From Gemmatimonadota bacterium (GTDB lineage: Bacteria > GCA-2686955): 12,903 nucleotides of DNA. Below, piece by piece: positions 3,281-12,813 of this stretch. The translations under genes were made by a program, and so were the position numbers. The notes below the pieces were generated by a model. It was not told where the DNA came from, searched no databases, and saw only the letters and a program-made list of their open reading frames with translations. Location of the stretch: positions 1 to 12,903 of the forward strand of contig NYZA01000079.1 of the NCBI GenBank assembly GCA_002686955.1, written 5' to 3'. Numbering within the stretch: the stretch's first letter is position 1; every line of letters starts with the position of its first letter.

Positions 3281-6200
3281 GTGGCCGCTGATCTGATCGG
3301 TGATCGATACCGGCTCCTGGAGCCGATCGGCGTGGGTGGCATGGGACAGGTTTTTCGCGCGGAGGATCTGCTGGCCCACGCGCCGGTTTGTGTGAAGCGC
3401 GCGCGGGAGCACGATGCTCGTTCGGCGGTGGTTGCGCGGGTTCGGCGTGAGTTTCGCGTGGGTAGCATGGTGGCGCATCCAAATCTGTTGCCGGTTCTCG
3501 ATCTGGTCGAAGAGGGGGGAGAGCCGTGGCTGGTGATGGAGCTGATCGAGGGACCTTCGCTCGAAGATCTCCTGGTCGGCTGCGGGGGGGAAGGGTTGCG
3601 CGCCGCGGGTGTGGTGGCACTGGGTCGTCAACTGGCGCGAGGCCTGGCGTGGTTTCACGAGTGGGTTGGGGAGAAGCACCGCGACATCAAGCCGGGCAAC
3701 ATCTTGATCGAGCCGGCGCGGTCGTTGGGCGATCGGAGGCTCACCTTGGCCGAGCTGGTTCCCGCTCCCGGCGAGGCTCCCTCCTTTCGAGCGATGATCG
3801 CCGATTTCGGGTTGGCGACCGGCGCAACAAGGATCTCGCGCAGCGATGCGGTGCCCGGCACGATCATGTTCACCGCTCCGGAGGTGATGCGGCTGGGAAG
3901 GAGCGCCACGGTGCGATCCGATCTCTACTCGCTGGGGCGAACCCTCGAATGCGCAATCCTCGGGCAACCACAGCCGAGCGAGGTCGAGCCGACCTCGGCG
4001 GGAGCGCTGCGGGAGGCGGTGGGGGACCGACTGGCTGGAATCGTCGGTCGGCTGCTCGCCCCCGATCCGGAGCAGCGTCTCGCCTCCGCGGCGGAGCTGG
4101 AGGGCGCCTTGGAGGAGATCGCCGAAAGGGCCAGCCTGAGCGCGTTTGGCTCGAGCTCGGGCTCCCCTCGGGCTTTTTTTCGTCGCGCGCGCCTCGACGA
4201 GCTGCTGCATCTCTGTGAGTCCCCCGTGGGCCCGGAAGGTCGGCTCGTCTTTCTACGAGGGGCGCCGCTCAGCGGTCGCGCGACCCTCCTGCACCGCCTG
4301 GCACGGATTCTCGATGCGCCCGCGATGACGGTTCGCCACGGGGAGCGGGCACTCGAGCCGCTCGCCCGATTGGCGCAAGACCTCATCGCCATGTCCGCCG
4401 AGGAGGAAGAGGGGCGGCGCCGCCGCGTCTTGGGGGACGAAGAGGGAGCGCTTCGGATTCTCGTAGGGCTCGGGGCGAAAGAGGACGGGTTGGGGGAAGA
4501 ACCGCTCCCCCCGGTCGATCCGCTCGCGCAGGCCCTGGGGCGGGTGCTGCGGCGGCACTTCGAAGAGGCGTCGCCGAATCTGCTCGTTCACGATCTCGAT
4601 CTGGCGGCAACGGAGGCGATCGCCTGCCTGGAGCAGGTGCTGCAGGTGTGCGGGCGCGTGACCTTGGTCGCGAGCGTCGGCCTCGACCGGCTGCCGGAGC
4701 GGCTCGAGAGGTTCGCGCAGTCGGCGCGGCGGCGCTGGGCCGATGTTCGCGAGATCGAGTGCGGCGAGATCTCGCCAGTAGAGGCGGCCGGCTGGGTGCA
4801 ATGGGCGTGCGAGGGTGTCTCGCAGCGCGAGGCCGGTGCTTTGGCGGAAGAGGCTCTCGCCTGGTTTGGGCGGGGGGCACGGGCGCTTTCGCTCGGTCTG
4901 GGTCAGCTGCGGGCGGAGGGGCTGCTCGAGAGGGGGGAGGGGGGAGCGCTGCCCGCGCTGGGAGTTGAGAGCTGGCCGGGGGAGGGACGACTTGGGAGAT
5001 TGTACGCGCGGCAGCGCGAAGGGCTGCCGGAGCTGGCGGAGAAAGTGCTGAGTCTGCTCGATCCGGCGGAATCGGACGGAATCGGCGCGTTGGAGCTAGC
5101 GGCCGGAATGGAGCAGGAGGAGATACCGGTCGCCGATGCGCTCGAAGAGCTGCGACTGCGTGCACTCGTTCGTATTCGTGCGCCGGTTGGCGATCGGCCG
5201 AGCTACGCGCTCGCGGCGGGGATGCTCCACGGGTCAGGCACCGAGTCGCGAGCCATCGACCCGGCCTTCCACGAGCGGGCCGCGCGGGCGCTCGACCGGC
5301 TCGACGACCCAGAGGCCCTGCGACGATGTGCCTTTCATCTCGAGAAGGCAGGGCGATCGGCCGAAGCGGTCGAGAAGCTGACCGCCCTTGCGCGTCGCCT
5401 CGATCCGCTTCGTCCTCCCGAGGCGGTTCAGCATCGTCTGCACGCGCTTTCGCTGCTTCCGGAATCGGCGATGCGCCCGAAGATCTTGCTGGAAGCGGCC
5501 CAGGCGGCGCTTCAGCACGAGCCGCCCACGGCCGGCAAGCTCTTCGCGGGTGTTTTGGGCGCACTGGAGCTCCTGCCGGTGTCGGAACGGGGGGCCGTGG
5601 AGTGTGAGGCGCGTGGTGGCCTGGTGACCTTCGAGCTTCTCATGGGGCGCCCGGAGGGGATGAAGCGAGAGATCGAGCTGCTCGACGCTTTGGATGATCT
5701 CGATGAGATCGCGGAGCACCAAAGGCTCCTTGCGCGGGCGACGCCGATTCTGGAGTCCGATGCGGCGGCCGCTCTCGAACTGCTCGACCGCTGTGCGCCC
5801 CGCTCCGGAGGCGAGCTCGATCGGTTCGCGTTTCGGTGGGCCGAGATCGGTTTCTGGCCCCTCTATTCCATGCGGCGCTTCGACGAGGCCGAGCAGCACG
5901 CCGAGCTTTGGCGGGATCGCGCTCTCGCGAGGGGACACGAAGTCGCGATGGCCGTCTTCCTCATGAATCTCGCCCAAGCCAGAGCGGCGGTGCAGCGCCT
6001 CGATGAGGCTGAGCGGACCTTGGTCAACGCCCTCGAGCTGGCCAGAAAGAGCGGCGCCTCCCTTCGGATCTTGCAGGTCGCGCTCGCATTGGGGCGCCTC
6101 CTGGTGAGAAACGAGAGGGCCTCGGAGGGGCGTGAGGTTTTCTGCGCGGCGGAGGCACTTGCGAGACGTTGCGGAAAGTACAACGAGGCGAGGGTCTCCT

Positions 6201-6943
6201 ACGAGCTCGGCACCGTCTGTGCTCATGCCGAGCTCTGGAACGAAGCCCAAGCCCATTATTCGCGCTCCTTCGCCGACTTGACGGCTTTGAGGCACCGCCA
6301 CCGATTCTACGTCGCCGCGAACCTGGTGGAGGCTCGGATGAGCACCGGGGACCTCGAGGGGGCACGAGAGACTCTCGAGTGGGTCATGACCGATGTGGCG
6401 GACTCGCCGGACGCCCCGCCGGCCCTACGAGACTCGCTGCTGGTATGGGCCCGCGTAATCGAGGGGATGCTGCTCGTCTCGGAAGGACACCCGGAGAAGG
6501 CAGTTCACACGCTGCGAGAGGCGATGCCGGAAACGAATCTCGGTGCCGCTGAGGCGGTGATTCGTGAGCATTGGGCGGAGGGCCTTTGCGACGCCTTGCG
6601 CGGGCTGGGCCGGGCCGAAGAGGCGGAGCCGATCGCGCTCGGGCAGGTCGAATGGACAAAGTCGGAGCAGTTGGCGTCTCGCGCACCGGCTGCGCGCCGA
6701 CTTTTCGCGGGGGTTCTGGCTGATCGGGGGCGGCTCGACGAGGCGCTGGATGAGCTCAGGATCGGCCGGGGCATCGCTGTGGCTCTGGGCCAGCGCTGGG
6801 AGGAATCGAAAATCTTCTCCGCGGCTGCGCGGATTCATGAGAAAGCGGATAGGATAGAGATGCGTCAGCGATGTCGCACGACGGCGCGCGCACTCAAACA
6901 GTGGCTCAGGGAGGGGATCCTGGATGGGCAATCGCCGGCTTGA
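3281..6943 (+). CDS. Hanks-type Ser/Thr kinase fused to STAND-like ATPase region and TPR repeats
   Basis: The predicted product has 1220 residues, with no signal peptide or membrane helix. Kinase domain (about 8-285): glycine loop IGVGGMGQVF (16-25), Lys39, probable helix-C Glu57, HRDIKPGN (133-140), DFG (175-177) and APE (199-201), so all catalytic residues are present. The stretch between HRDxxxxN and DFG is about 34 residues, roughly 20 longer than usual. Residues about 320-500 resemble a STAND/AAA_16 ATPase. The P-loop-like GAPLSGRAT (327-335) has Arg in place of the Lys, and LLVHDLD (434-440) is a weak Walker B. A winged-helix-like segment may follow (580-650), then helical TPR-type repeats to the C-terminus. 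The start is GTG with GGGGGAG 5 nt upstream. The architecture recalls PknK-like regulators. It probably senses a ligand or partner through the TPRs and phosphorylates proteins, possibly the downstream activator (inference). Confidence 0.9.
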   Translation: MAADLIGDRYRLLEPIGVGGMGQVFRAEDLLAHAPVCVKRAREHDARSAVVARVRREFRVGSMVAHPNLLPVLDLVEEGGEPWLVMELIEGPSLEDLLVGCGGEGLRAAGVVALGRQLARGLAWFHEWVGEKHRDIKPGNILIEPARSLGDRRLTLAELVPAPGEAPSFRAMIADFGLATGATRISRSDAVPGTIMFTAPEVMRLGRSATVRSDLYSLGRTLECAILGQPQPSEVEPTSAGALREAVGDRLAGIVGRLLAPDPEQRLASAAELEGALEEIAERASLSAFGSSSGSPRAFFRRARLDELLHLCESPVGPEGRLVFLRGAPLSGRATLLHRLARILDAPAMTVRHGERALEPLARLAQDLIAMSAEEEEGRRRRVLGDEEGALRILVGLGAKEDGLGEEPLPPVDPLAQALGRVLRRHFEEASPNLLVHDLDLAATEAIACLEQVLQVCGRVTLVASVGLDRLPERLERFAQSARRRWADVREIECGEISPVEAAGWVQWACEGVSQREAGALAEEALAWFGRGARALSLGLGQLRAEGLLERGEGGALPALGVESWPGEGRLGRLYARQREGLPELAEKVLSLLDPAESDGIGALELAAGMEQEEIPVADALEELRLRALVRIRAPVGDRPSYALAAGMLHGSGTESRAIDPAFHERAARALDRLDDPEALRRCAFHLEKAGRSAEAVEKLTALARRLDPLRPPEAVQHRLHALSLLPESAMRPKILLEAAQAALQHEPPTAGKLFAGVLGALELLPVSERGAVECEARGGLVTFELLMGRPEGMKREIELLDALDDLDEIAEHQRLLARATPILESDAAAALELLDRCAPRSGGELDRFAFRWAEIGFWPLYSMRRFDEAEQHAELWRDRALARGHEVAMAVFLMNLAQARAAVQRLDEAERTLVNALELARKSGASLRILQVALALGRLLVRNERASEGREVFCAAEALARRCGKYNEARVSYELGTVCAHAELWNEAQAHYSRSFADLTALRHRHRFYVAANLVEARMSTGDLEGARETLEWVMTDVADSPDAPPALRDSLLVWARVIEGMLLVSEGHPEKAVHTLREAMPETNLGAAEAVIREHWAEGLCDALRGLGRAEEAEPIALGQVEWTKSEQLASRAPAARRLFAGVLADRGRLDEALDELRIGRGIAVALGQRWEESKIFSAAARIHEKADRIEMRQRCRTTARALKQWLREGILDGQSPA

Positions 6944-6960
6944 GCCAGACTCCGAGAACA

Positions 6961-6967
6961 GGGAGAG
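6961..6967 (+). promoter_or_regulatory. Ribosome binding site deciding the start of the exported protein
   Basis: GGGAGAG lies 4 nt before the ATG at 6972. An in-frame ATG at 6924 would overlap the kinase gene by 20 bp and would put 16 polar residues ahead of a clear signal peptide, so the later start is preferred. Confidence 0.65.
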
Positions 6968-6971
6968 ACCG

Positions 6972-8105
6972 ATGATCCGCTCGACAACAATCCTCCTCGG
7001 GACCGCTCTGGTCATGGTCGAGGTTGCTGCGGGTTCGAGAGCGGATCTGTCCGCCCGGGCTTCCGGGGTCGAACCCTTCGCGGGCGATCTCATCGCCAAA
7101 GAGGAGTCCTTGCCCGGCCCCAACGCCTCGAAACGCGATTGCGAGCCGCCGAAGGTGTTGACGGTCTTCGACCTGTCCGGCCCCGAATCGATCATCGCCG
7201 AATGGGAGCAGATCGCCGGCGACTCGCTCGGATACATCGTGCGCCGCATGCAAGAGGGAGCGATTCCGCCGACCGATTCGCTCGAGGCCGGCGACATCGT
7301 GATCTGGACCACCGGCATCGACACGCTCGAGGGCCCCGGCGATCTCTCCTGTCTTACACCCGAGGAGGAGGACACTCTTCTGGCCTACCTCCTCGATCCC
7401 TCGCCGGGAGTGAAGCCGGCGCTCTACCTCGAATCGCCCGACTATCTCGACGAGCAGATCGCCGACGACGCGGTCTCTCCTCTGGCGACGGCACTCGGCA
7501 TCGCCGATGTCGATACCACCGATTTCACGCGCGACGAAATGTTCGTGCAGACCTGCGGTCCGCTGACCGGTTTCCGTCCCGGGTTCCATACTCCTACCCG
7601 CCGGCGTTTCAATCAGCCCGACGACTACACGGTTCTTCCTCCCGTCACCCGGGCGCTCACCGTGGTCGACACCAACGGGGTCCACATTCCGGCCCACCTA
7701 TGGGACGAGGGAAGCTACTCGGTCAGCTTCGCCACGTTCCTCTTGAAGAGCAACGACGAGAACGGCGATCCGGACGATTACCCCCAAGACTCGGTCACCT
7801 GGGTCCGCCTCGCTCTGACTGAGCTGGGGCATCGGCCCCTCTTCTACCTGGGACCGGCGTGGAACGACACGACTCTCCAGGCGCCCCAGGGTGGAGAGCT
7901 CAACTTCGACGCCGAGGTCTACAACTGCATGGGAGCCCCCTACCGCGACGGCTCGCCGCAGCGTGAGAGCGGCTTCGGCCTGCACGCCGCGATCACCGAT
8001 GCGAACGGTGTCGTGCTGCACAGCTTCGAGAAGTTCTCGCTCGAGATCGAGGCCGGGGTGATTCGGGCGATTCCGTCCCCTCGGCGCGCAGTCTCGACGA
8101 GGTGA
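6972..8105 (+). CDS. Exported protein of unknown function with possible GATase1-like fold
   Basis: The predicted product has 377 residues. The first 25 form a signal peptide (MIRS start, hydrophobic TTILLGTALVMVEVAAG, possible cleavage after SRA). I recognise no named family. Residues about 60-200 carry KVLTVFDLSG, then GDIVIWTTGID (108-117), TPEEEDTLLAYL (129-140) and PALYLESPDYLDE (149-161). This 'event line, decide to open, bounded by a list of elements set aside' pattern is like the flavodoxin/class-I-glutamine-amidotransferase-like domains in secreted proteins of several GC-rich phyla, but no catalytic triad is evident. Residues about 225-300 look beta-rich. The gene starts 28 bp after the kinase gene and ends in a GTGA overlap with the sigma-54 activator, so the two are probably translationally coupled. 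It could be the envelope sensor or output of this cluster, but that is a guess. Confidence 0.75.
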   Translation: MIRSTTILLGTALVMVEVAAGSRADLSARASGVEPFAGDLIAKEESLPGPNASKRDCEPPKVLTVFDLSGPESIIAEWEQIAGDSLGYIVRRMQEGAIPPTDSLEAGDIVIWTTGIDTLEGPGDLSCLTPEEEDTLLAYLLDPSPGVKPALYLESPDYLDEQIADDAVSPLATALGIADVDTTDFTRDEMFVQTCGPLTGFRPGFHTPTRRRFNQPDDYTVLPPVTRALTVVDTNGVHIPAHLWDEGSYSVSFATFLLKSNDENGDPDDYPQDSVTWVRLALTELGHRPLFYLGPAWNDTTLQAPQGGELNFDAEVYNCMGAPYRDGSPQRESGFGLHAAITDANGVVLHSFEKFSLEIEAGVIRAIPSPRRAVSTR

Positions 8106-9847
8106 TCTCCCGCGCCGCCGATGTGCTCGGGGTGATCGACCGGACGGCCAAGGAGATCGATCCTGACGCTCCCCACGTCGAGGAGTCGGCGGAACGGATT
8201 CAGGCATCGAGCCGTCAGCTCAGGCTCTTGCTGGACCGTGCCCGCGAGCTGCCGCCGCCGGACTCCGAGCCTCGCCGCGTGGCTCCACCGGAGCGCCGGA
8301 GCGATGGGAGCGATGGGGCGGGCGAGGCGAGGTTCGAGATCGGTGTGCCGCGGGGGGACCGGCCGGAACAGGTTGCCCAGGACGCCGCCGTCAAGCTGGC
8401 CGGGAGCATCGAGGCCGACCTGGTCTTCGTCGCCGAGCTCGATTCGGATGGGGAGAGTTTCAGGCAGCTCGGGCGGGCGAGCTCGCACCCGCGGCATGGG
8501 CGGGGCGACCGCGCGGAGGAGACGATCGAGGCCAGCCGGGGCATTCTACGGAACGCCTGTCGGAACAGGGAGCCGGAAATCGTGGTCGATGCCTGGAACG
8601 ATGCGCGTTACCAGCGCCGCCAGAGCGTGACCAGCCAGAACATCCGATCGGTGATGGCCGCGCCCCTGATCGATCGAGGAGGCGAGGTCTTTGGCGTTAT
8701 CTACGCCGATCGCCGGGGCATCGCCTGCAAGCCATTCGGCGCGAGCACGCGGCGGGCCTTCGAGCGGCTGGTCGAGAGCGCGAACGATCTAATCAACGAC
8801 GCACGTGAACGCTCGGGCGGGGATCGGAGCGGAACCGACCTGGCGGAGATCCGTCTGAGAGCCACGCGACCGATCCTGGGCGATTCCGAGACGATCGAAG
8901 AAGCGAGGCAGCTCGCGGCCGCTTTCGCGGCGACCCACGCGCCGGTACTGATCACGGGCGAGCGTGGAACCGGCAAGGAGCTCTTCGCCCGCGCTCTGCA
9001 CGAAATGAGTCCCTGGCATGGCGGAAGACTGGTGCGCCTGCAAGGCCCATTCCTCGTGGGCGATACCGGCAACGCCGAGATCCGCGGGTGGAAGAAGGGG
9101 GCCTTCACCGGTGCGATCGAGTCGCAGCCCGGCGCCTTCGAGCAGGCGGCGGACGGAACCGTCTTCATCGACGAGGTCGCCGATCTCGATCCCAAGGCGC
9201 AGGCCGCTCTGCTCGTGGCCCTCGATCCCGGCGTGGTTCGCCGCCTGGGGGAGACCGAATCACGCATGGTGACCGCCCGGGTGATCGCCGCGACAAATCG
9301 CGACCTGCACACGCTCGCCGCCGAGGGCGAATTCCGCCGCGATCTGCTCGATCGCCTCTCGGCGTTGGAGCTGCGTCTGCCGCCGCTTCGAGAGCGCCGA
9401 TCCGATCTATTGCTGCTTTTCTGGCAATTCGTGGCTTCGACCGACCTCCCGCTGGAGAGCCGGCCCGACTCGCTCTCTCCCGACGCGGAGCGCTGGCTGA
9501 TGGCCCATCCCCTCGAGGGGAATGTGCGTGAGCTGAAGAACCTGGCGACCCGATCCTGCGTGATGGCGACCTACCGTGGCTCGACCACGATCGAGAGGGA
9601 CGATCTCGCCGATGATGGCAAGCCCGCCCCGCTCATGGCCTGGCCCCAATTCCGCAGGGCTATTCTCGATGCCGCGCCGCCGGAGGAGCGGGACGGGGAG
9701 CTCGGAGCCTGGCTCGAGGGATGGCATGCGGCCACCGGCGGATCGCGAAAAAGGATGTGCGAGCAGGCCTGCCTGAGTGACACCCGGCTGCGCACCCTCA
9801 TTAGAGAAGCGGGCGCGGAGACCTCGTGGGCGTCGGCGAAAGGGTAG
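8102..9847 (+). CDS. GAF-domain sigma-54-dependent transcriptional activator (bacterial enhancer-binding protein)
   Basis: The predicted product has 581 residues. Residues about 1-80 hold a helical, then low-complexity, segment. Residues about 85-230 form a GAF domain (SVMAAPLIDRGGEVFGVIYAD). Residues about 250-480 form the sigma-54 AAA+ domain: Walker A GERGTGKE (286-293), GAFTGA (333-338), Walker B VFIDE (354-358), FRRDLLDRL (411-419), LPPLRERRSD (426-435) and GNVREL (473-478). Residues about 540-575 form a Fis-type helix-turn-helix (SRKRMCEQACLSDTRLRTLI). GAFTGA is intact, so it should contact sigma-54. The usual ELFGHE before GAFTGA is replaced by EIRGWK. There is no receiver domain, so control is by GAF ligand, partner or phosphorylation. 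The start is GTG overlapping the previous stop. A sigma-54-like promoter with paired upstream palindromes lies just downstream and is the likely target. Confidence 0.92.
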   Translation: MISRAADVLGVIDRTAKEIDPDAPHVEESAERIQASSRQLRLLLDRARELPPPDSEPRRVAPPERRSDGSDGAGEARFEIGVPRGDRPEQVAQDAAVKLAGSIEADLVFVAELDSDGESFRQLGRASSHPRHGRGDRAEETIEASRGILRNACRNREPEIVVDAWNDARYQRRQSVTSQNIRSVMAAPLIDRGGEVFGVIYADRRGIACKPFGASTRRAFERLVESANDLINDARERSGGDRSGTDLAEIRLRATRPILGDSETIEEARQLAAAFAATHAPVLITGERGTGKELFARALHEMSPWHGGRLVRLQGPFLVGDTGNAEIRGWKKGAFTGAIESQPGAFEQAADGTVFIDEVADLDPKAQAALLVALDPGVVRRLGETESRMVTARVIAATNRDLHTLAAEGEFRRDLLDRLSALELRLPPLRERRSDLLLLFWQFVASTDLPLESRPDSLSPDAERWLMAHPLEGNVRELKNLATRSCVMATYRGSTTIERDDLADDGKPAPLMAWPQFRRAILDAAPPEERDGELGAWLEGWHAATGGSRKRMCEQACLSDTRLRTLIREAGAETSWASAKG

Positions 9848-9853
9848 AGGCTG

Positions 9854-9900
9854 CCCGCAAAAGTGCGGGACCGGGATACGGAGACCCGCAAAACTGCGGC
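9854..9900. promoter_or_regulatory. Tandem palindromes, candidate enhancer sites for the adjacent activator
   Basis: Copy 1 (9854-9869) is CCCGCAAAAGTGCGGG, a perfect dyad with 6-bp arms. Copy 2 (9885-9900) is CCCGCAAAACTGCGGC, with CCGCA/TGCGG arms. They differ at only two of 16 bases and start 31 bp apart, about three helical turns, so both would face the same side of the DNA. They begin 7 bp after the activator stop codon and lie about 90-136 bp upstream of the start predicted from the -24/-12 element. That is a usual distance for dimeric enhancer-binding proteins. They could alternatively act as paired RNA hairpins at the end of the activator mRNA, but no T-run follows. Confidence 0.6.
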
Positions 9901-9923
9901 TAGGCCCCGAGGAGCGCATTCAG

Positions 9924-9948
9924 TAAGTCATGAAGTTTCAATGACTTA
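9924..9948. repeat. AT-rich inverted repeat overlapping an IHF-like sequence
   Basis: TAAGTCAT (9924-9931) and ATGACTTA (9941-9948) are perfect 8-bp arms around a 9-nt spacer, which can itself pair partly (GAA with TTC). It is AT-rich compared with its surroundings. The right part, TTTCAATGACTTA (9936-9948), matches the IHF consensus WATCAANNNNTTR at all but one defined position. It lies between the tandem palindromes and the -24/-12 element, where a bend site is expected. No T-run follows, so a terminator is unlikely. Whether this organism has IHF is unknown. Confidence 0.45.
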
Positions 9949-9963
9949 GTGTGTTCAGCTCTT

Positions 9964-9979
9964 TGGCGAGCTCTTTGCC
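9964..9979 (+). promoter_or_regulatory. Candidate sigma-54 (-24/-12) promoter of the sigma-70-family gene
   Basis: TGGCGAGCTCTTTGCC matches the sigma-54 consensus TGGCAC-N5-TTGCW at the key elements: GG at 9965-9966 and GC at 9977-9978 with exact spacing. The deviations are GA for AC and a final C. Transcription would start near 9990, giving a leader of about 48 nt. The element is embedded in two direct copies of AGCTCTTTG (9957-9965 and 9969-9977) with a 12-bp period. The neighbouring gene encodes a sigma-54 activator with intact GAFTGA, which raises the likelihood. Confidence 0.6.
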
Positions 9980-9997
9980 TTGAGAGCCCCGTGACGG

Positions 9998-10014
9998 CGA
10001 GCCATTCCGGCTCG
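9998..10014 (+). promoter_or_regulatory. Hairpin in the predicted leader of the sigma-70-family gene
   Basis: CGAGCC (9998-10003) pairs perfectly with GGCTCG (10009-10014) around ATTCC. If transcription starts near 9990, the hairpin lies in the 5' leader, ending 23 nt before the ATG and 11 nt before the GGGA at 10026-10029. It could stabilise the message or affect translation, but it may also be chance in GC-rich DNA. Confidence 0.3.
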
Positions 10015-10037
10015 ACCCGAAACACGGGACAGCTCTC

Positions 10038-10748
10038 ATGCAGACGCAACAGATTTCAGCCACGACCCTCGAGCTCCATCGACTCTTCCGCGAGGTGGCC
10101 CGGCAAGGGAGCGCCCCGACGACCGAGCAGCAAGGCTCGATCCATCGGCTTCTCTTCGACGGGCCGCGCTCACCGGTGGCGGCGATGATCCGCAAGTATC
10201 TCGGCCGCTGCGACGGATACCGCAGGTTCCTCCAGTCCACGAACGACGAGACCGATCTGGTGAACGACACCTTCGTCGCGCTGATTCATGCCCTCGAGGC
10301 AGGCCAGTACAGCGGCGAGCAAGCCAGCCCCTTCGGTTTCGTCAAAACGATCGCGATCCGCTGGATCCGCGGGCAGGCCCTGCGTGGTCGCACCCGCGCG
10401 AAGCACGCCTCTCGGCCCGAGCGAGACGATGAGATCGATCCGGTCGAACTCGTCCCAGATGGGCCGAGCGCCGATCCCTCGATCGCCTTCGATCGAGACC
10501 AGGTCAGGGAGTGGACCGAACGCCTGGCCTCGCGCCTGAGCGAATCGGACCGCAGTGTGCTGCGGGCTCGCTATGCGGAGGATCTGAGCCACGAAGCGAT
10601 CGCCCAGCGGCTGGGAAAGCCCTCGGCGGGAGCATCGCGGATCGGACTCATGAGGATCCACAGGCGGATCGAGGCGATGATCCATGACATGCCGGGATGC
10701 GAAGACCGGCTGCGTGGCGCGATGACACGCTTGGCCGCCGCGGCGTAG
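10038..10748 (+). CDS. Sigma-70-family (ECF-like) RNA polymerase sigma factor
   Basis: The predicted product has 236 residues. Region 2 (about 46-115) includes ETDLVNDTFVALIHAL and SPFGFVKTIAIRWIRGQALR, corresponding to core binding and -10 recognition. An acidic linker (about 128-155) follows. Region 4 (about 165-215) includes LSESDRSVLRARYAEDLSHEAIAQRLGK and SRIGLMRIHRRI, the -35-binding helix-turn-helix. Regions 1 and 3 are missing, as in ECF factors, but the linker is long. GGGA at 10026-10029 lies 8 nt before the ATG. No anti-sigma gene is adjacent: the next gene is a membrane enzyme. Control may therefore be at transcription, by the -24/-12 promoter upstream. Its regulon is unknown; the sulfatase-fold gene 94 bp downstream is one candidate. 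Confidence 0.88.
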   Translation: MQTQQISATTLELHRLFREVARQGSAPTTEQQGSIHRLLFDGPRSPVAAMIRKYLGRCDGYRRFLQSTNDETDLVNDTFVALIHALEAGQYSGEQASPFGFVKTIAIRWIRGQALRGRTRAKHASRPERDDEIDPVELVPDGPSADPSIAFDRDQVREWTERLASRLSESDRSVLRARYAEDLSHEAIAQRLGKPSAGASRIGLMRIHRRIEAMIHDMPGCEDRLRGAMTRLAAAA

Positions 10749-10802: not shown

Positions 10803-10842
10803 CCCCTGCCCGCTTCATGAACCCCATGGCGCGGGCGGGGTC

Positions 10843-12813
10843 ATGCGTGAGCACTCCATGTCGTCCGAACGCCGCATCTCTCTCGCCGCCGCACCCGGCC
10901 TGGCCTTCTTCGCCGGGGCGGCCCTGGGCACCGCCGAGGCGTTGCTCTATCTCATGCGCTATCCGGGTCTGCGCCCCATGGGTCTGGCCCAGGCTTTGGT
11001 TTCGGGCTCGAGCGTCGGCTTGGCGTTCGCCGCGGGCTCGCTCGTGCCGATCCTGATGGCGAAGCTGGCCGCCGCGCGCGATCCGGCCGAGCGCGACACC
11101 CGCTGGCAGCTCGGAGCGACCCTCTCGCTCCTGCTGGCAGGGGGCGCGGGAGTGATGGTCCTGGCGACATTTCGGGGCACCCTGATCTTCCGTCATCTTC
11201 CCGGCGGAGGGATCTCGCGCCTGCTCGCCCAGGCGATAATCGTCGCTCTTTCCCTCGCTCTGGCCGCCTGGCTGACGCCCAGGGCTACCCGCCGCTTGCG
11301 CCGTGACGGCGGAATACTGTCGCGAATGGCCGGGCGGGGTTGGGGGCTGCTGGCGAGCGCGCTGAGCATCGTCGCACTTTCCGCCCTGGCGGTGGTCCAG
11401 ATCGGGCGACCGAGCCGCGAGGCCGAAGCGTCGAGCCCGAGCGCACCGAATCTGATCCTGATCTCGATCGACACTCTGAGGGCCGATCATCTCGGCTGCT
11501 ACGGCTATGAGCGGCCGACCAGTCCCAATATCGATCGCCTTGCTCGGGGCGGAGTGCGTTTCGAACGTGCTTACACGACGTGGCCAACCTCGGCGCCGGG
11601 ACATGCCAGCATGCTGACCGGGCTCTATCCGCAGACCCACGGCGTCATGGGGAACGGATATCGTCTTTCATCCGTCGTGCCCACCCTTTCCGAGGTGGCC
11701 GCGGAGGCGGGCTTGCGCACGGGCGGATTCATCAACAACCCATGGCTTTCCTACACACTCGGCTTCTCGCAGGGGTTCGAGACATATTTCGATGCGGAGC
11801 GCCTGGAGCTAGCTTCGGAAGCCTGGATCGAGCTGCTCCTACAAAATGTGTCGCTTTATCGCCTGGCCGTCGGTCTCGTGCCGGGAGAACGCCAGCCCGC
11901 CACCAGGCTTGCCCTGCGCTGGATCGAACGACACAAAGAAGAGCGTTTCTTCCTCTTCCTGCACCTGCTCGATCCCCATCAGCCCTACCACCCCGATCCG
12001 GCTTTTCGGGACCGCTTCCTCGATGCGATCGGTCTCGACGATCCCGGAGACACACGTGTCTTCATGGGAACCAGTGAGAAGAAGGGGCGGGGCGGCATGG
12101 GGCGCAACCTGGGCGAGACGGTGCCGATGAGCGAGGAGATGGAGCGGGCGGTCGTCGCGCGTTACGACGAATGCGTGCTCAACGCCGACCGGCGGATCGG
12201 AGAGCTGCTCGACGCCTTGGGGCAGCTCGGCCTCGATGATCGCAGCGTCGTGCTCCTCACCTCCGATCACGGCGAGAACATGGCCGACAACCAACCCCGT
12301 TTCAACCACGAGGGGTTGCACCAATCGATCCTCCATATCCCCTTCATTCTGAGAGGACCCGGAGTGGCGCCGGCGGCGGATCATCGTCAGGCGCCGGTAA
12401 GCCTGGTCGATGTCGTGCCCACGCTCGCCGATCTGGGCGCTCTGGAGCCACCGCCCTTCCAGGCGGGGGTTTCTCTGATCGATCGTTCGCTACGGCTCGA
12501 GGAGCGGAGTGTGTTGGCGATCGAAGGGGTCGATCCCGCAACGCAAAAAAAGGCGGTCGCGACGCGCGACTGGAAGCTGGTCCGCTCCAACGCATTCGGT
12601 CGAATGCTCGTTCCGACCGACCGACCGGAGGGCCTGAATCCGCCCGATCGCGACGCGTCCGACAGCCATCCCGAGCTCGCCGACAGCCTCGAGATCGTGC
12701 TGGAGCAGGGCCATGCGGCCTGCCTCGAAAACGCCTACCCCTCCGAAGAGGGCGTCGCCGAGCTCGATGAGGAGCGGATCGAGCAACTCAAGGCGCTGGG
12801 GTATTTGAACTAG
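10843..12813 (+). CDS. Membrane-anchored sulfatase/phosphodiesterase-fold enzyme (alkaline phosphatase superfamily)
   Basis: The predicted product has 656 residues. About five hydrophobic helices occupy residues 12-37, 46-74, 90-110, 123-145 and 166-187. The catalytic domain follows (about 200-630), probably periplasmic. Metal-site motifs are NLILISIDTLRADHLGCYGY (203-222), LLDPHQPYHP (375-384), TSDHGEN (473-479) and the FNHEGLHQ region (487-494). The nucleophile segment reads TSAPGHASMLTGLYP (249-263). Aligned with C-x-P-x-R of sulfatases, Cys is Ser250 and Arg is His254. This resembles the T/S-x-P-S-H variant of sulfatase-like hydrolases and argues against a classic formylglycine sulfatase; a phosphodiester or phosphoglycerol-type activity is possible. 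The C-terminus LKALGYLN is typical of this subfamily. GGGG at 10837-10840 supports ATG 10843; ATG 10858 is an alternative. Confidence 0.85.
   Translation: MREHSMSSERRISLAAAPGLAFFAGAALGTAEALLYLMRYPGLRPMGLAQALVSGSSVGLAFAAGSLVPILMAKLAAARDPAERDTRWQLGATLSLLLAGGAGVMVLATFRGTLIFRHLPGGGISRLLAQAIIVALSLALAAWLTPRATRRLRRDGGILSRMAGRGWGLLASALSIVALSALAVVQIGRPSREAEASSPSAPNLILISIDTLRADHLGCYGYERPTSPNIDRLARGGVRFERAYTTWPTSAPGHASMLTGLYPQTHGVMGNGYRLSSVVPTLSEVAAEAGLRTGGFINNPWLSYTLGFSQGFETYFDAERLELASEAWIELLLQNVSLYRLAVGLVPGERQPATRLALRWIERHKEERFFLFLHLLDPHQPYHPDPAFRDRFLDAIGLDDPGDTRVFMGTSEKKGRGGMGRNLGETVPMSEEMERAVVARYDECVLNADRRIGELLDALGQLGLDDRSVVLLTSDHGENMADNQPRFNHEGLHQSILHIPFILRGPGVAPAADHRQAPVSLVDVVPTLADLGALEPPPFQAGVSLIDRSLRLEERSVLAIEGVDPATQKKAVATRDWKLVRSNAFGRMLVPTDRPEGLNPPDRDASDSHPELADSLEIVLEQGHAACLENAYPSEEGVAELDEERIEQLKALGYLN

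Follow-up and report, generated by a model that had tools for sequence, protein, structure and literature searches.

A candidate sigma-54-dependent promoter between a kinase-linked activator operon and an ECF-like sigma factor gene in a Gemmatimonadota bacterium

The window, a 12,903-nt stretch of contig NYZA01000079.1 from a Gemmatimonadota bacterium (66% GC), carries a tRNA-Met gene (615-691) and a kinase-activator operon of overlapping genes, followed by a sigma factor gene. It belongs to a 4.28-Mb assembly (G000), and the comparison within the phylum covers one further genome (G001; 83% complete, 900 contigs). The first gene of the operon (3281-6943, plus strand) encodes a 1220-aa Hanks-type Ser/Thr kinase (Pfam PF00069, E = 7e-27) that also has AAA_16-like and TPR regions. 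The second (6924-8105, plus strand), overlapping both its neighbours, encodes a conserved protein with no Pfam or NCBIfam match that shares 47% identity, across 312 columns, with the product of the syntenic gene in G001; the copy in the window has the shorter C-terminus. The whole set is conserved in G001: the N- and C-terminal parts of the kinase are both matched (C583 and C6), and the C6 part adjoins the same partner genes.

The third gene (8102-9847, plus strand), directly upstream of the gap discussed below, encodes a genuine sigma-54 activator of 581 aa, with GAF (E = 1e-9), AAA+ (PF00158, 156 bits, E = 8e-46) and Fis-like helix-turn-helix (HTH) domains. In the alignment its Walker A and B motifs (GERGTGKE and FIDEV) are present and GAFTGA is intact, as the preliminary description of this DNA had stated. 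The AlphaFold model has good confidence in the GAF/AAA+ core, and Foldseek matches it to NtrC1, NtrX and FleQ. For the Fis-type HTH of that description the signals are mixed: the C-terminal part can be aligned gap-free with those of Fis-type proteins, and in the model it forms a long helix followed by a two-helix HTH (pLDDT about 83-89), but the last 60 residues give no Pfam HTH match even at E<=10, and the domain is divergent. The activator is 49% identical to its homologue in G001, from which it differs in the recognition helix.

Elsewhere in the same genome, contig 174 (L086, 6248-11299, minus strand) encodes a 1683-aa protein that combines a Ser/Thr kinase, TPR, GAF, an AAA+ sigma-54 activator domain and a Fis-type HTH. 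Such a joining of kinase and activator in one protein supports the idea that the two act together in the window, the similarity between the two kinases being weak (29%). Our literature search returned no usable paper on the combination of a kinase with a GAF activator.

The gene that follows (10038-10748, plus strand) encodes an ECF-like sigma-70-family factor of 236 aa. Both TIGR02937 (52.2 bits, cut-off 42.9) and PF08281 (27.5, cut-off 25.7) score above threshold, in agreement with its earlier assignment to the sigma-70 family, while region 2 matches its profile weakly (E = 0.02). Read from the translation, region 2.2 keeps its DxxD motif as DETD (residues 70-73, with D70 and D73). No anti-sigma gene was recognised adjoining the sigma gene. 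The retained DxxD, taken with this, fits control through the gene's own transcription rather than by phosphorylation or an anti-sigma factor. Sigma-54 itself is encoded in the genome: a 471-aa frame matches PF00309 with 52 bits in a Pfam profile search. The preliminary description had held that the lack of rpoN would speak against its proposal.

The gap from the activator stop (9847) to the sigma ATG (10038) measures about 190 bp. Direct reading bears out the layout that had been described there: a distal palindrome, a proximal palindrome, an AT-rich inverted repeat containing an IHF-like site and a -24/-12 element follow one another in that order, and a 56-nt inverted repeat completes the series.

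The two palindromes, CCGCAAAAGTGCGG (distal, 9855-9868) and CCGCAAAACTGCGG (proximal, 9886-9899), are 14 bp long and share the form CCGCAAAA(G/C)TGCGG. Start to start they are exactly 31 bp apart, just as first noted, and their centres lie 104 and 73 bp before the GG of the -24 element. We propose both as activator sites. Neither has a further exact copy in the 4.28-Mb assembly, nor does the genome hold another pair of the same palindrome form. A dispersed-repeat (REP) origin was rejected on the same absence of other exact copies. Paired palindromes with identical arms are rare: other loci totalling about 203 kb hold 4 distinct cases where chance predicts 1.4, in a sample that is not genome-neutral since its loci were chosen around activator genes; at 30-33 bp spacing the chance expectation in about 203 kb is 0. 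The palindrome pair is stronger evidence than the -24/-12 element.

Past the palindromes, GC content falls from the 66% of the window to 37% at 9915-9957. This segment includes an inverted repeat with 11-nt arms (9921-9951, 91% complementary), a possible bend site. Within it lies the IHF-like sequence TTTCAATGACTTA (9936-9948), one mismatch away from WATCARNNNNTTR. The repeat and the site are thus both present as claimed, but the site is weak evidence because the window contains three such one-mismatch matches on its two strands. The HU/IHF homologue of the genome fits IHF models best, yet stays below all IHF cut-offs (100.5 vs 115 bits).

The -24/-12 element (9964-9978, plus strand) matches all eight core bases, with TGGC at 9964-9967, the spacer GAGCTCT and TTGC at 9975-9978. 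It had been given as TGGC-N8-TTGC. The spacer in fact has 7 nt, which is the canonical spacing, and the predicted start, 48 nt upstream of the sigma ATG, falls at 9990 as given before. TGGC-N7-TTGC occurs exactly only here in the window, and the chance of one core match on the sense strand of the gap is about 0.4% (188 positions, 186 per 2 x 4.28 Mb). Genome-wide, however, the core is found 186 times, against 174 for the reversed control. The element by itself therefore means little, and with the core at chance level the case rests on the combination of parts.

The extended sigma-54 consensus YTGGCACG-N4-TTGCW is common but not obligatory. The sequence in the gap reads TTGGCGAG-CTCT-TTGCC and lacks the A, the C and the final W. 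Among the 100 core sites listed, 9 carry TGGCACG, against about 2 expected from base composition (about fivefold), which suggests that a minority of the genomic core sites are real and have the full consensus. The clearest sites carry ACG after TGGC, where the 9964-9978 copy has GAG. A scan of the gap for sigma-70 promoters found none. As a separate observation, a direct repeat of AGCTCTTTG, two copies 12 bp apart at 9957-9977, covers both halves of the element.

Two other loci share parts of this arrangement. Outside the phylum, in G011 (L007, 1-175, minus strand), an operon of an activator and a histidine kinase is followed by palindromes spaced by 31 bp (TCGGAA-N4-TTCCGA) and then by a sigma-54 box, CTGGCATAAGGCTTGCT. 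The proximal palindrome centre is there 50 bp from the GG, against 73 bp in the window, and the ATG comes 28 nt after the predicted start, against 48 nt. In the genome under study, contig 111 (L093, 5724-8624) encodes an NtrC-type response-regulator activator, followed by CTGGCACGCGCGTTGCT, which matches the full extended sigma-54 consensus, and by a FliA/WhiG-like sigma gene (sigma-28-type, assigned by eye plus PF08281). A sigma-54 box thus stands between an activator and a sigma gene twice in this genome, on contig 111 and in the window. Paired palindromes before a sigma-54 box in another genome (G039, L018) were dropped as a parallel; the repeats resemble a mobile element, with copies of TCAGGACTAAAGTCCTGA nearby.

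The single relative within the phylum differs downstream of the operon. G001 keeps the kinase-activator operon, but after its activator comes a sulfatase gene in opposing orientation, and the sigma homologue, the palindrome pair and the box are absent at that locus. One scan of genome contigs returned a distant activator only. Either the sigma branch was added in one lineage, or it was lost from, or is missing in, G001. Since this sole relative lacks the sigma gene and is 83% complete in 900 contigs, conservation in the phylum can be argued neither for nor against.

Altogether, we consider it probable (about 0.7) that the ECF-like sigma gene is under an enhancer-dependent sigma-54 promoter in an HrpL-like cascade, the best reading of the locus. 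The sigma-54-to-sigma-70-family cascade first proposed here is favoured by rpoN, the activator, the unique palindrome pair and the parallels in G011 and on contig 111; the relative G001, without the sigma gene, the palindromes and the box, weighs against it. Also on the negative side are the core box that is not clearly enriched, the lack of ACG after TGGC and the divergent HTH.

What the DNA itself shows is the set of parts with their order and spacing, rpoN and the domains of the activator; on this basis the cascade would run as follows. The operon would supply its set of products, namely the Ser/Thr kinase, the conserved protein and the GAF-AAA+ activator. A signal, presumably through the kinase and/or the GAF domain, would switch the activator on. 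Its dimers would bind both palindromes, which face the same side of the helix at a distance of about three turns. The activator would then form a ring, loop back over the AT-rich bend site and, by ATP hydrolysis, open the sigma-54 polymerase at 9964-9978. RNA would start near 9990. The new sigma factor would redirect the polymerase to a putative regulon of its own. The predicted start falls inside a strong inverted repeat, and the true 5' end could lie elsewhere.

This repeat, absent from the preliminary description, fits a plain promoter leader less simply. It spans 56 nt (9982-10037, plus strand) and, as RNA, would form a hairpin whose last base is the one before the ATG. Its predicted fold has an MFE of -32.5 kcal/mol (z -6.2, none of 1000 shuffles as stable) and is more stable than the equivalent segment before 82 other long ORFs. 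The predicted start lies eight bases into its 5' arm. The next gene in the window (sulfatase, ATG at 10843) has a strong GC hairpin of its own at 10804-10842, with a z of about -3 to -4.

One alternative extends the best explanation. It takes the sigma-54 promoter as real and adds that the hairpin blocks translation of RNA reading through from the activator operon; RNA started at 9990 would be without the first 8 nt of the 5' arm and hence without the outer stem over the bases preceding the ATG, a stem that read-through RNA can form; sigma-54 transcripts alone would then be well translated. The sigma gene would then be doubly guarded, by an activator-dependent promoter and by a start-codon hairpin. 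We hold this to be tentative and on the unlikely side. It is favoured by the marked stability of the hairpin and by its end falling exactly at the ATG. Predicted accessibility points the same way: opening 10024-10052 would cost 13.9 kcal/mol in a transcript with its 5' end at 9990, against 19-21 in read-through RNA, and the probability that 10029-10037 is unpaired is 0.60 against 0.33. The one terminator-like match between the activator and sigma genes (9957-9972) is weak, a 5-bp stem that overlies the -24 box. These energies, however, are predictions, the 9990 transcript keeps an inner hairpin, and its 13.9 kcal/mol remains a high cost. No relative supplies covariation in support of the stem, and the strong start hairpin of the gene at 10843 implies that such hairpins may serve another role. 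If the guard were real, it would amount to transposon-style protection from read-through in a cellular regulator directly downstream of its own activator operon. A hairpin acting as placed would let a strong regulator sit behind its own activator without leaky expression.

The inverted repeat could instead be a DNA site, or leader RNA under another promoter. The latter belongs to a second alternative, in which transcription of the sigma gene comes from the upstream operon or a different promoter, the gap is a structured leader RNA (a thermometer, an sRNA target or similar) and TGGC-N7-TTGC is a chance match. The near-chance frequency of the core in the genome agrees with it, as does the fold of the whole 196-nt gap, far better than that of shuffled sequences (z about -6). 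But inverted repeats of a promoter raise fold scores too, the gap has no Rfam match, and a palindrome pair spaced by 31 bp beside a sigma-54 activator is left unexplained. We judge this alternative improbable.

Least probable is that the palindromes terminate transcription of the activator operon as hairpins, or belong to another regulator, and have nothing to do with sigma-54 control of the sigma gene: the distal one begins 8 nt past the activator stop and could form a 6-bp hairpin, but no T-run follows, terminators do not require the same 14-mer at three helical turns, and G011 has palindromes at this very spacing ahead of a good sigma-54 box.

Read as an enhancer-dependent sigma-54 promoter, the locus resembles several known systems. 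In the NtrC - glnA enhancer, two dimer sites are separated by about three helical turns and lie roughly 100-140 bp upstream of the start. The palindromes share this spacing and distance, whereas the site sequence and the metabolic nature of the target gene differ. In the transposase genes of IS10 and IS50, a fold-back hairpin at the start codon protects from read-through, and the gene's own transcript lacks the 5' arm. The hairpin found here is predicted to be alike in that its 5' arm would be missing in part from the gene's own transcript, but it precedes a regulator and not a transposase; our literature search gave no usable paper on the IS10 fold-back. In Borrelia, the Rrp2 - RpoN - RpoS cascade likewise has a sigma-54 activator turn on a sigma-70-family gene, although RpoS falls outside the ECF factors and the activator, Rrp2, is a response regulator.

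ECF43 factors (EcfP/EcfK) are activated by phosphorylation, are linked to Ser/Thr protein kinases (STPK) and have lost the DxxD of region 2.2 (PMC13147305). The window likewise has a Hanks-type kinase gene near an ECF-like sigma gene. Its sigma factor, however, keeps DETD at 70-73, where ECF43 members carry uncharged residues with Thr, and its gene is preceded by a sigma-54 box.

The closest model is hrpL of the plant pathogen Pseudomonas syringae, in which HrpR/HrpS, sigma-54, an upstream activating sequence (UAS) and IHF drive an ECF sigma gene that in turn controls a regulon (PMC5263251). The cascade concept is thus already known; new here are the organism, the kinase-linked activator and the hairpin. 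The locus in the window would likewise drive an ECF-like sigma gene with sigma-54 and an activator at a putative UAS, with a possible IHF site, a likeness of layout and logic rather than of demonstrated close sequence relationship. HrpR/HrpS form a hetero-oligomer, whereas a single GAF-AAA+ activator is encoded here in a kinase operon directly upstream. HrpL-style control, from sigma-54 to an ECF-like sigma factor, would in this way extend to a barely sampled phylum (two genomes here) and be tied to a conserved kinase-activator operon.
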